A program made the position numbers and the translations under genes. A DNA stretch of 39,884 nucleotides from a virus, in IMG/VR virus record IMGVR_UViG_2166559006_000002, positions 1 to 39,884 of that record. One strand, given 5' to 3'. Below the pieces are notes generated by a model. It was given only the letters and a program-made list of their open reading frames with translations. It did not search any database and was not told the DNA's origin. This document shows, piece after piece, positions 28,271 to 31,890 of the stretch (within the stretch, counting starts at the first letter, position 1; each line of letters begins with the position of its first letter).

Positions 28271-30193
28271 TTAAGGTTTATTGCCAAGATTCAACTGTTC
28301 GCGGCGACTGTTACGCACACGACCCGTAGCATCAATGAACTGCCGCATCCGCGCCTGCGCCGCCCTCACAGACTGTTGCGCCGCACGCTTCGACTCCGGG
28401 TCAGGTGCCCCTGCGAGTTCACGTTTCGCCGCACGAATCTGACGTTCGATAGCGCGTTGACGCTGCGATTCGTCATACTTGGCTTGATCGTCCGCGTTCC
28501 ACACGTGCGGGGCGGGCAGCACGGTCACACCAGGGATGAAGCCCACCAAAACGTGGCGGCAGTTATGGTGAAATAGCCCTGCCGCGGTCGCATCCGCAAT
28601 CGTCGCCGCAGCAACACCATCCGGGACACCATCCGTCAACACGGCACCCTCCCACGGGGCGCAATTATGTGAGATAATTCCGTTAGAGGAATACCAATTT
28701 TGACGAGTCTGGATGTCCCAAACATGCCCCGAAAACTGACTGATCTCCAAGCTGACGATCTCGTCCGCCGCTACCTTGCTGGTGAAACCCAACGCGAGGT
28801 CGGTGCCGCCTTCGGCATCAGCAACGTAAGTGCGAGCGACTACATCCGTAGGGCCGGTGTCACTGCTCGCCCCCGTTGGCACGGTCTCAAGGCTGGACTC
28901 GATGCGGTGGACCCTCAAGTCCTTTCCGAATTGCACTCCGCCAATGCTCGCGCTCAATGGGCTGCTCGCACTCCCGAGGAGCGGCAGGCTATGGTCCGCG
29001 CGGCCCACGATGCTAGCCGTGGCGTCCCTCGCTCCGTCGAGACTAAGCGCAAGACCTCGCTCATTAAGGCAGGAAAGGCACTCTCCGACTCGCGGTATGA
29101 GGAGCAAGTCGCCGAATGGCTCCGCGAACGCCAGATCGCTTTCACTCAGCAACACTCGGTTGGGATCTACAACCTCGACTTCGCGGTAGACGATATTGAC
29201 GTCGAGTTCACCACTGGTTGGGCGCGCAAGAAGCAATGGCAGCCCCGGCTTGACGACATCTTCGATGCGGGTTGGCACCTGTACGTGATCTGGCATCGTG
29301 AGACTCGCCAGCAACTCTTGCCCGCCGTCGTGGATGACCTTGTCGCCTGGCGCGAGATCCTTCATTCGACGCCAACCGTTGGGTGTCAATACCGAATGGT
29401 CGGGCGTCGCGGTCAACTCATTGCCGAGGGCAGTGCGAATGGTGACGAGGTTGCCCGTGTATTCCGTACGTACAGCGCCTACGGGAGCCGGACCAGAAAC
29501 GACGGTCCCTGAGACGACGCACAACGGGCACGGGTGCCCATCATCCGTGACCGTGAAATAGTGGATCCCCAATGACAGCATCCGGTCCAAATGGGACACG
29601 TTGTAAGCCCGTTGCACCGCCGTCCTAACCGCCATCTCCACGTATGCGGACAACTCCCACTTACGGCCACGCGAATCCGTGAAACCGTCAACACCGCGCC
29701 GGGTCAAATCCCGGTACGCATGCGCTTGCGCGCGAGCTGGTGTCGACCCGAGCACCTGCTCCTGCGCCGCATCCGAAATTACAGCCTGGTAAGCGTCATC
29801 AGCGAACCGGAGAATCGGATAATTCAACTGGTTCAGTTTCCCGGCCAAGTCTTCACGGATCGCCCGCGCCGACCGTTCCGCATGCGACTCCCACGAATCC
29901 CCGAACAGTGAACCGCCGTCAGCGGGTGTCCCCGACCCACCCGCAGCGGCCCCAGACGCGGCAGCCTGCATCACAGCATGCTCCACCAGTGCAGGCACAC
30001 GGGCATCCAACTGTCCCGCCGTCCGACGTGCAGCTTTACGCATCCCAAACAACAACAGGCCGCCTGTCCCGTACCGGGCAATCAACGCCGCGAACCCGCC
30101 CAACAACGACAGTTGCGCTACCGCGAACAACCCGACAAGGGCCGCAGACACGGCAGCAACAACCGTCGCATGATCAGGTTGAGGGTCAGACAT
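28271..30193 (-). CDS. MuF-like minor head protein interrupted by an intein
   Basis: The precursor is 640 residues. The exteins (1-224 and 511-640) join to HPCPL plus CAPWEGAVLTDG, the conserved CxxC-PWEG of SPP1 gp7/Mu F head proteins, giving 354 residues after splicing. The N-terminus has hydrophobic stretches (VVAAVSAALVGLFAVAQLSL) and the region FTDSRGRKWELSAYVEMAVR is typical of the actinophage family. It acts with portal and capsid in head assembly or DNA ejection. The intein begins at Cys225 and ends with His-Asn510. The gene follows portal, as expected. Confidence 0.88.
   Translation of the reverse strand: MSDPQPDHATVVAAVSAALVGLFAVAQLSLLGGFAALIARYGTGGLLLFGMRKAARRTAGQLDARVPALVEHAVMQAAASGAAAGGSGTPADGGSLFGDSWESHAERSARAIREDLAGKLNQLNYPILRFADDAYQAVISDAAQEQVLGSTPARAQAHAYRDLTRRGVDGFTDSRGRKWELSAYVEMAVRTAVQRAYNVSHLDRMLSLGIHYFTVTDDGHPCPLCVVSGTVVSGPAPVGAVRTEYTGNLVTIRTALGNELTATPDHSVLTPNGWRRMKDLAPGDKVIHDGGQELLASLTMPDHVQVPTRIEDVVKPGLPLLLARPTSGELDVNIVYREVEVVDPNRVLLSESDLAFAEPFGDLLLIPRVGECLSCLNERGLALSLDGARDATASIVGRADHSLPLLGSASSPLSASIGGVQFGKDLRVHRIESSLETVPTGASSDTGPTDVVARTYVADAEGGTDLALGFTSKVAADEIVSLEISQFSGHVWDIQTRQNWYSSNGIISHNCAPWEGAVLTDGVPDGVAAATIADATAAGLFHHNCRHVLVGFIPGVTVLPAPHVWNADDQAKYDESQRQRAIERQIRAAKRELAGAPDPESKRAAQQSVRAAQARMRQFIDATGRVRNSRREQLNLGNKP
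28664..29521 (-). other. Intein (286 residues) in the MuF-like protein
   Basis: Block A starts CVVSGTVVSGP; block B is ELTATPDHSVLT, with the TxxH motif (T39, H42); APGDKVI follows; block F is HVWDIQTRQNWYSSNGII and block G is SHN before C+1. All splice residues (Cys1, His-Asn, Cys+1) are present, so it should be active. No LAGLIDADG or HNH nuclease is visible in the sense frame between residues 75 and 245, so in that frame it reads as a mini-intein with an unassigned insert. The insertion splits an invariant Cys of the host protein, a typical intein site. Confidence 0.9.
28700..29512 (+). CDS. Putative homing endonuclease encoded antisense within the intein
   Basis: The product is 270 residues from TTG at 28700, with AGAGGA nine bases upstream; ATG at 28724 is an alternative. 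Residues 13-52 (LTDLQADDLVRRYLAGETQR then EVGAAFGISNVSASDYIRRA) are an HTH. Residues about 128-215 (SDSRYEEQVAEWLRERQIAF, VGIYNLDFAVDDIDVEFTTG, LDDIFDAGWHLYVIWH) match the Vsr/DUF559-like PD-(D/E)xK fold, with Glu134, Asp160 and Glu169 as candidate metal ligands. It lies wholly inside the intein on the other strand, in codon register with it. Normal composition and two consecutive domains argue against a chance shadow, but the last ~60 residues, opposite the splicing domain, may be unselected. Confidence 0.65.
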   Translation: MTSLDVPNMPRKLTDLQADDLVRRYLAGETQREVGAAFGISNVSASDYIRRAGVTARPRWHGLKAGLDAVDPQVLSELHSANARAQWAARTPEERQAMVRAAHDASRGVPRSVETKRKTSLIKAGKALSDSRYEEQVAEWLRERQIAFTQQHSVGIYNLDFAVDDIDVEFTTGWARKKQWQPRLDDIFDAGWHLYVIWHRETRQQLLPAVVDDLVAWREILHSTPTVGCQYRMVGRRGQLIAEGSANGDEVARVFRTYSAYGSRTRNDGP

Positions 30194-30201
30194 TCGACCT
30201 C

Positions 30202-31890
30202 CTACGTAATCGCGTTAGCAGACTTCGGTGCACCAGGAACCGGGTTCACATCCCCCGGCGAAGGCGGCTTCTCAGCCGGCAACGAGAACGGGTCCGTGAC
30301 AGGCTCAGCGAACTCAGCCTTGATCTTCGCCACTTCCTCATCCCACATGTCGTCATTCCAGTCAGGGTGCAGAATCTTCACACGCTCATCCAAAGAAGCA
30401 GACTGCCCCGCGAACAAAGTTTGCGTTGTCTGCGCCAACCTCAGCATCGACTCCTGCACCGAATCCGGGAACTCCACCCAAATCGGGGCAACCACATTCG
30501 GAGTACCGAAAATAGCTTTATCAACAGCCAACAATTTTTGAAGAATCCTGGCCACATGCGGGGTTTGCGTCCGAATAAACCGGCCCCTCGTCAAGAACGT
30601 CAACCGTTCCCGAGCCTCAACCTCGGTCGCCGTCGACTCAATCGACCTCGACGTAGTCTGACCCAAACCAAACGTCTGCGTCGTGAACCCCGACATCGTC
30701 AGAATCTGCTCCGCCAACATTTCAGCAGTCTTCGCATACCCGGTCGGATCAAACTGCGGCTGCAACACCTGCATTTTGTCCGTCATCTTCACATTCGGAC
30801 CCTTAGCCGGATCCGACACACCCACATACGTTTCCTGATCCAGGTCAGCAATCGCACCATTACCCGGCCCAGGGTTACCCAGCAAAGACTTGTCATACCA
30901 GACGCGGGCTTTAGCGGCACGGCGGGCACGCATCCAATCGGACAACGTCTCCGCCAACTGGTCCATCAGATGCTCAACACCATCAAGCGACGAACGCCCC
31001 AAATGGCGGCCCACCACATCAGTACGCCACAACCGGGTTGGCCCCTGATTCGGCACATACTCGACGCACAAACCAGGCGACTGCGAATCAACCTGCCCAG
31101 CAACCGCGGAACCCTCAGTGAGAACAAACAGCGGCATCGTCTCAGGACGATCCGACAACGGAACCCGGTAACCGAGCCGCTCCTCCTCCCCCTCATACAG
31201 GCCATGCAGAATCACACCGACACCCAACGGGGACAGTTCATGCCGTTCCAGATGACGCCAAACCTTCACACCCTCACGCGCCACCACAGACCAAAAAGTC
31301 ACAGCAACAAGGTGACCCCACCGGAACTCCGGCAATGCCTGATCCGCATCCACAACATCCAGGAACGGCCGATCAGGGACAACGTTCTTATCCCACGCAA
31401 CCCGCAGAAAATGGCCGCCCAACGCTGCACCAACCTCAGCACCCCGCGCCAACATTGTGTACATGCCCGCATCAGCGAGCTCGTTCAAACGTTCCTGCGT
31501 CGGATTCGCCGTCTTAGCCGGAACCCCGGACCCATCATGATCCACATCGATACGGACCGTGAACGTCGGCGGATCCGCATACAACAAGTCGCCTACAGCC
31601 TGACAAATCAGGCCACCCATCGGGACAGGCAGTTTCGTGTTACGGTTCGCCCCCAACGGGCGTTGACCCACAAAAAACCTTTGCATCCGCTGACCGATGG
31701 TCGGTTTGAAACCGCCCGTGTCCGACGCGAAAAACCCTGTCGAATCTGCTGCAACCCCGCCACCGTACGCGGCCTGCAACTTTGATAGTTCGTTGGAATA
31801 CCACGCCGACCATTGGGCCATGTGAGCAAAAATGGCCTCCATGTTCTCCGGAGGCCATTGAGACTTCGTATCCGAAACGGGCAGCGGCAT
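30202..31890 (-). CDS. Portal protein
   Basis: The product is 562 residues from ATG at 31890, behind AAGGGG; an upstream in-frame ATG at 31917 lies in the terminator region. KLPVPMGGLICQAVGDLLYA, then TEVEARERLTFLTRGRFIRT and QILTMSGFTTQTFGLGQTTS, are typical of SPP1/HK97-like portals of actinophages. It forms the dodecameric DNA channel at one capsid vertex. Position between terL and the MuF-like gene is standard. Confidence 0.9.
   Translation of the reverse strand: MPLPVSDTKSQWPPENMEAIFAHMAQWSAWYSNELSKLQAAYGGGVAADSTGFFASDTGGFKPTIGQRMQRFFVGQRPLGANRNTKLPVPMGGLICQAVGDLLYADPPTFTVRIDVDHDGSGVPAKTANPTQERLNELADAGMYTMLARGAEVGAALGGHFLRVAWDKNVVPDRPFLDVVDADQALPEFRWGHLVAVTFWSVVAREGVKVWRHLERHELSPLGVGVILHGLYEGEEERLGYRVPLSDRPETMPLFVLTEGSAVAGQVDSQSPGLCVEYVPNQGPTRLWRTDVVGRHLGRSSLDGVEHLMDQLAETLSDWMRARRAAKARVWYDKSLLGNPGPGNGAIADLDQETYVGVSDPAKGPNVKMTDKMQVLQPQFDPTGYAKTAEMLAEQILTMSGFTTQTFGLGQTTSRSIESTATEVEARERLTFLTRGRFIRTQTPHVARILQKLLAVDKAIFGTPNVVAPIWVEFPDSVQESMLRLAQTTQTLFAGQSASLDERVKILHPDWNDDMWDEEVAKIKAEFAEPVTDPFSLPAEKPPSPGDVNPVPGAPKSANAIT

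Follow-up and report, generated by a model that had tools for sequence, protein, structure and literature searches.

Can the splicing and mobility functions of an intein be encoded by complementary strands of the same DNA? The question is raised by a phage head gene in a viral record of 39,884 nucleotides (IMG/VR IMGVR_UViG_2166559006_000002, the whole of which is referred to here as the window). A sequence-only reading of this DNA had described a 286-residue intein with all splice motifs in a MuF-like protein and, opposite it on the plus strand, an open frame of 270 residues (28700-29512) with an HTH and a nuclease core, and had proposed that splicing and mobility are divided between the two strands. 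The features of the locus are collected in Table 1. We consider it highly probable that the best reading is a mobile intein with a separate homing endonuclease encoded by the complementary strand.

Table 1. Features of the intein and antisense nuclease locus (positions are those of the window).
Feature	Position	Strand	Basis or remark
MuF-type phage minor head protein gene, intein-interrupted, 640 aa precursor	28271..30193	-	Pfam Phage_min_cap2 E 9e-42; Pfam Intein_splicing E 2e-11; PHROG minor head protein E 1e-63
Intein, 286 residues, Cys1 (at 29521) to Asn286 (at 28664)	28664..29521	-	Homologue invariants; pLDDT; Foldseek
Intein N-terminal splicing region including block B (TPDHSV); the nuclease C-terminus overlaps it	29384..29488	-	NCBIfam intein_Nterm, residues 12-46, above cut-off
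Intein C-terminal splicing region, blocks F-G (HVWDIQTRQNWYSSNGIISHN)	28664..28726	-	Translation; high pLDDT
Predicted antisense nuclease gene, ATG start, 262 aa	28724..29512	+	Fold, homologues; open frame reaches TTG 28700 (270 aa)
Weak Shine-Dalgarno-like GGATGT ahead of ATG 28724	28711..28716	+	Homologues usually GGAGGT or GAGGT
Nuclease HTH DNA-binding domain, residues 7-43	28742..28852	+	AlphaFold helices 7-18, 23-29, 34-43; GcrA DNA-binding domain Z 7.9
Vsr/EDxHD/DUF559-like catalytic domain, residues 121-215, with E126, D152 and E161	29084..29368	+	Fold matches; residue conservation
Active-site strand pair D152 to E161 (DFAVDDIDVE)	29177..29206	+	Nuclease alignment

The minus-strand element had been delimited correctly: its coordinates, splice junctions and blocks are all as first described. 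The junctions, read from the sequence, are CPL/C...HN/CAPWEG (slashes mark the splice points), and blocks A, B, F and G, Cys1, the block-B His, the C-terminal His-Asn and the +1 Cys are all present. In an alignment of 53 homologous inteins, C1, G23, T39, H42, G49 and N286 are invariant, and the window protein scores 44.4 bits against Pfam Intein_splicing (Pfam cut-off 35.8). AlphaFold modelled the splicing domain (residues 1-60 and 250-286) with a pLDDT of 93-98, and Foldseek found the Hint/intein fold, the best matches being the RecA mini-intein and many other inteins (probability 1.00). By its blocks and its fold, the splicing element is an intein and not a group I ribozyme. It is without the canonical same-frame endonuclease between the splicing blocks: the sense-frame middle gave no confident AlphaFold fold (residues 94-122, 143-158 and 166-233 have a pLDDT below 50) and no endonuclease family match in Pfam or NCBIfam, and the nuclease is on the opposite strand. 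We infer from these models that the minus strand encodes an intein inside the MuF head protein that is predicted to be splicing-competent.

The intein and the nuclease lie codon opposite codon with the second position common to both, a register that had been claimed before and was confirmed directly, and the plus-strand frame ends with the TGA at 29512. The exclusion of TTA, CTA and TCA codons from the nuclease gene was likewise borne out by counting (0 of 262). The GC contents given earlier (73% at position 3, 67% at position 1 and 33% at position 2) apply to a 60-codon count in the core; over the whole nuclease ORF they are 69, 48 and 66% at positions 1, 2 and 3, respectively. The HTH and nuclease core were both recovered by AlphaFold, which, from a 55-sequence alignment, predicted an N-terminal HTH and a nuclease fold with a mean pLDDT of 87.3. 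The model matches Vsr (Z 9.8), I-Bth0305I (Z 9.4 over 89 residues) and the DUF559-type endonuclease 3hrl (Z 9.3), and the Foldseek match to the I-Bth0305I catalytic domain has an E-value of 1e-3 (probability 1.0). When a profile of the nuclease was run against solved chains with hmmsearch, the closest were 3hrl (E 7e-7) and 3r3p (E 6e-6). Among the 55 family members, 29 match MTES_1575 and nine match DUF559 at E ≤ 0.01; the window protein has no match above Pfam cut-offs (Sigma70_r4 on the HTH, with E 9e-4, is below its cut-off) and none with PADLOC, where marginal matches to a homing endonuclease model were found in relatives only. By fold, the protein is predicted to belong to the Vsr/EDxHD/DUF559 superfamily, and the same DNA gives a confident predicted fold from the plus strand where it gives none from the minus strand.

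D152 and E161 are invariant and E126 is kept in at least 90% of the 55 nuclease homologues. Of the EDxHD residues, the window protein has the conserved Glu (E126) and Asp (D152), and it also has a second, invariant Glu (E161). A His after the second catalytic strand occurs in approximately half of the family and is absent from the window protein. As this residue is missing and the Shine-Dalgarno (SD) sequence is weak, the window copy of the nuclease could be weakened. No promoter-like site was found in a scan of the plus strand near the gene. The complement of the DFAVDDIDVE stretch is a conserved DFHGD...EVE-type stretch of the intein (minus strand, intein-alignment consensus), a pairing of motifs that follows from the fixed codon register.

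An open antisense frame in a GC-rich window is, taken alone, weak evidence for a gene. None of the 56 sense Leu and Ser codons in the window intein is TTA, CTA or TCA, but with the codon usage of the window's other minus-strand genes this would occur by chance with P ~0.095. Another plus-strand open frame, of 681 aa (29740-31785), lies opposite the N-terminal part of the MuF gene and the portal gene; it looks like a meaningless GC-rich shadow and indicates that antisense open frames are cheap and common in this window. Openness by itself is thus not significant, and the excess over chance rests on comparative data.

A tblastn search with the plus-strand product identified 119 phage records, 102 of which cover at least 80% of the product, from phages of Salmonella, Pseudomonas, Gordonia, Klebsiella, Escherichia, Vibrio and other hosts; scans of IMG/VR and a genome collection added 89 loci. 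At 107 of the 109 loci analysed (the window and 106 others, those of Haemophilus phages among them), the nuclease lies antisense to an open frame in register 0, typically with recognisable intein blocks, which argues for the proposed coding of splicing and mobility by complementary strands. A stop inside the similarity match was found in eight of these 107 loci; at L023 it precedes the ATG and at the others it follows the last conserved motif, so that the catalytic core is never broken; the antisense frame is retained, and a plus-strand frame commonly broken in homologous inteins, which had been named as evidence that would count against the proposal, was looked for and not found. When the search was instead made from the sense strand, all 80 loci retrieved with blocks A-B (67 residues) had the antisense nuclease, although this retrieval is not independent because the stretch overlaps the nuclease C-terminus. 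Blocks F-G (40 residues) are mostly free of nuclease overlap, and retrieval with them, much less affected, gave the antisense nuclease at 79 of 80 loci, with the remaining one running off its contig; the two sets have some contigs in common and contain near-duplicates. Neither mini-inteins nor sense-frame members of the nuclease family were found among the loci fetched with either query. An antisense nuclease thus appears, from these comparisons, to be the rule in this intein family.

The two exceptions to this layout are free-standing nuclease genes. In Acinetobacter phage IME285 (L020:455-1348) and at L051:2818-3678, the nuclease lies tail-to-tail just 3' of an uninterrupted, intein-less MuF gene, and these genes may be precursors of the intein-embedded form or escapees from it. 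Rhodococcus phage REQ3 (L019) has a shortened nuclease without the HTH, and its intein apparently begins with Ala rather than Cys (HPN/AVLEG...). In the annotated records that were inspected, the full nuclease gene is absent from the gene lists, with a truncated call in one record, and none of Pfam, PHROGs and NCBIfam gave a family covering its full length; for these reasons, many such genes are probably hidden. The missing annotation is probably due to gene callers that reject overlapping genes on opposite strands.

Selection acts on both strands, as judged from codon use, position differences and recoding. Codons that would stop the nuclease (TTA, CTA or TCA in the sense frame) make up nine of 3372 sense Leu and Ser codons in the similarity-matched nuclease region, compared to 1008 of 5512 elsewhere in the same genes. 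Among 91 related pairs, differences at sense positions 1, 2 and 3 are 42, 22 and 35% in the overlap and 28, 22 and 50% in the exteins, and between two Gordonia phages the counts are 48, 11 and 33 in the overlap and 7, 5 and 93 in the exteins. Because sense position 1 is the wobble position of the nuclease, constraint is, overall, stronger on the nuclease frame. This varies along the intein: the ratio of position 1 to position 3 changes is 0.57-0.67 at block B, where the order is reversed and sense-frame selection dominates in the homologues, and 1.2-1.8 across most of the middle.

Synonymous recoding gave a similar picture. Similarity of the antisense products exceeds recoded nulls with a median z of 14, a value that is too high for close pairs, as the model takes no account of shared ancestry, and we therefore relied on distant pairs. 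Between the window and locus L001, the nuclease scores 2.54 (0.54 expected from the sense proteins), sense blocks A-B score 2.44 (0.52 expected from the nuclease; z 6.5) and the sense middle scores 0.92 (0.46 expected; z 2.6); for L030 and L037, the sense middle exceeds the nuclease shadow with a z of 1.7. The sense middle looks to be mostly a passenger translation of the nuclease gene. The earlier statement that each frame constrains the other consequently holds, but regionally: constraint is stronger on the nuclease frame in the middle and on the splicing frame at block B.

The start signal of the nuclease lies inside a splicing block. In approximately 50 related inteins, the nuclease starts with ATG (rarely GTG) opposite the block-F His, with an SD sequence upstream. 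In most members, HVYNLQ read backwards is CTGGAGGTT-ATA-NAC-ATG, with TGGAGGT or CGAGGT ahead of the ATG. Compared to recodings with each gene's own codon usage, an ATG is present at the start in 46 of 51 cases (19.3 expected, sd 3.0), and the mean SD match is 4.67 (2.18 expected; the top of 500 recodings was 3.06). The block-F His codon in the set retrieved with blocks F-G is CAT in 66 cases and CAC, giving a GTG start, in 12. Read from the other strand, the codons of intein block F (HVYNLQ) thus form the SD sequence and ATG of the nuclease far more often than codon usage alone would produce. Based on the start position in these relatives, the window nuclease probably begins at the ATG at 28724-28726 and not at the TTG at 28700, so that the 270-residue frame first described is open and contains the HTH and nuclease core but is probably longer than the protein.

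Comparison with empty alleles, as suggested earlier, was informative in relatives within the Guernseyvirinae, where both presence/absence alleles and transfer with divergent flanks were found. The MuF exteins of E. coli phage fEg-Eco19 are 97.5% identical to those of Snoke and contain no insert, with an exact, scarless junction. Snoke (E. coli, Kagunavirus) and VSe103 (Salmonella, Jerseyvirus) belong to two phage genera, and their inteins are 94-99% identical while flanking windows are mostly 60-80% identical, with a step of ~90% adjoining the intein, as expected from co-conversion. The empty allele and the shared intein with divergent flanks indicate, at the level of sequence comparison, mobility. 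For the window phage, the search for an intein-less allele gave none above ~38% extein identity, and its site could be compared with distant intein-less homologues only. In 60 of the 78 inteins with a readable junction, CRC follows the C-terminal junction (the MuF N/CRC motif); other insertion sites include CAPWEG in the window, CRARDG in Ec1-ASingh and CTIDGK in Sejanus. A second antisense-nuclease intein lies at STT/CRARDG in Escherichia phage Ec1-ASingh (L012) and vB-Eco-KMB36 (H266); the Ec1-ASingh MuF gene is very similar to that of Snoke, whose own intein is at HPN/CRSTT. At L099:2914-3765 (minus strand), an antisense-nuclease intein of the same kind interrupts a uracil-DNA glycosylase/DNA polymerase A fusion gene instead of a MuF gene.

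Could the plus-strand frame nevertheless be a meaningless shadow of a conserved intein? With the GC-rich codon usage of the window, such a frame would arise by chance approximately once in ten cases. However, the free-standing nucleases of L020 and L051 have no intein opposite, antisense similarity is far above the recoded nulls (even though the median is inflated by close pairs), the ATG and SD sequence are selected, nuclease wobble positions change fastest and the predicted nuclease fold is confident. We rejected this explanation, to which we attach almost no probability; the earlier remark that the HTH and nuclease domains are hard to explain as a shadow is upheld by the comparative data. 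It is also very unlikely that the sense intein no longer splices, with the minus frame open only to avoid truncation of the head gene and the element amounting to a nuclease gene inserted in reverse. The small conservation of the sense middle beyond the nuclease shadow in distant pairs (z 2.6 and 1.7) and the pLDDT below 50 over most of that middle would fit such an element, but Cys1, the block-B His, Asn286 and the +1 Cys have all been retained, similarity in blocks A-B exceeds what the nuclease shadow would give (window and L001, z 6.5), the sense frame is the constrained one at block B (ratio 0.57) and the splicing domain is predicted at a pLDDT of 93-98. Furthermore, an unspliced insert would usually occupy the conserved CRC motif of the head protein.

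A third explanation accepts an expressed antisense nuclease but gives it a main job other than homing, such as marker exclusion of competing phages or attack on host DNA, with the intein serving as a safe dock. Such a role is consistent with the existence of free-standing members and with HTH arms that could recognise other sites. Near-absolute linkage to the intein argues against it, as do the position of the free-standing members beside the same target gene, a presence/absence polymorphism and transfer footprint centred on the intein, and the similarity in fold to the homing endonuclease I-Bth0305I, and we judge it improbable. The architecture, conservation on two strands, start-site signature, predicted folds, transfer footprint and scarless empty site in relatives are computational observations; from them we infer that the nuclease is expressed and brings about homing by cleavage of the empty site, and that the intein is able to splice.

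If the element is such a mobile intein, the minus-strand product would excise itself from the MuF precursor to give the virion protein, while the plus strand would encode a separate, unfused homing endonuclease (an HTH arm and a Vsr-fold nuclease) translated from its own SD sequence and ATG embedded as the complement of block F. In co-infecting phages whose MuF allele lacks the intein, this enzyme would cleave the insertion site, and the element would spread as the break is repaired from the intein-bearing copy. Towards its two ends, the shared DNA would be selected for splicing, and in the middle mainly for the nuclease, with the sense translation of the middle a tolerated, probably unstructured insert. 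Expression of the nuclease early and of the head gene late may avoid antisense interference by temporal separation. Small plus-strand genes lie in runs that flank the minus-strand head genes at L013 and L018 and point towards the antisense nuclease, which suggests read-through transcription of the nuclease from these runs; a promoter scan of Snoke gave no convincing plus-strand site before the nuclease.

Canonical endonuclease-containing inteins such as PI-SceI carry a LAGLIDADG or HNH domain. Like the inteins described here, they begin and end with splicing blocks, have an endonuclease to which mobility is attributed and invade a conserved site in an essential gene. The endonuclease of inteins has, however, been described as an in-frame fusion with the intein (PMC3943268), while here it is a separate complementary-strand protein that overlaps the splicing blocks. 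The closest precedent comes from nuclear group I introns of Didymium with an antisense homing endonuclease gene, namely I-DsqI in D. squamulosum L2066 and the gene in D. iridis Dir.S956-2, for which expression from the antisense strand and cutting of the intron-less site were demonstrated experimentally (PMC9548176). Those introns are also self-splicing elements with a homing endonuclease gene on the opposite strand, but they are RNA ribozymes of eukaryotic rDNA with the gene in a peripheral insertion (P9.2), whereas in the phage inteins the same codons encode protein on both strands.

I-Bth0305I is an EDxHD homing endonuclease of a Bacillus phage and a group I intron enzyme. It shares with the window protein the nuclease core fold, the catalytic Glu/Asp region and the layout of nuclease and DNA-binding arm, and differs in its intron association and in the His after the second strand. 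The Vsr mismatch endonuclease and the DUF559/MTES_1575 nucleases, which have repair or uncharacterised roles, have the same catalytic fold but are not embedded in inteins. T4-type free-standing phage homing endonucleases sit next to their target gene, as do the nucleases of L020 and L051 beside MuF, but outside any splicing element. In a literature search restricted to open-licence papers, no intein with an antisense endonuclease was described, which is weak evidence of absence. As described inteins fuse the endonuclease in frame and the nearest antisense precedent is an RNA intron, we regard the element as a form of a known kind, the mobile intein, whose gene architecture is genuinely new.

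We think it likely that these loci represent a widespread phage intein lineage in which a splicing protein and a homing endonuclease occupy complementary strands of the same codons, block F is the complement of the ribosome binding site and start of the nuclease, and a large set of antisense genes has systematically escaped annotation. Phages of Actinobacteria, gamma-proteobacteria and Firmicutes have all retained the design, which is among the cleanest cases of two overlapping protein genes on opposite strands with regional, measurable selection on each. An intein motif (HVYNL of block F) doubles as a regulatory signal for the opposite-strand gene, and the laboratory phages Snoke and fEg-Eco19 make the evolution of an antisense gene directly testable. 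These inteins indicate that full antisense dual coding can serve as the basis of a mobile element.
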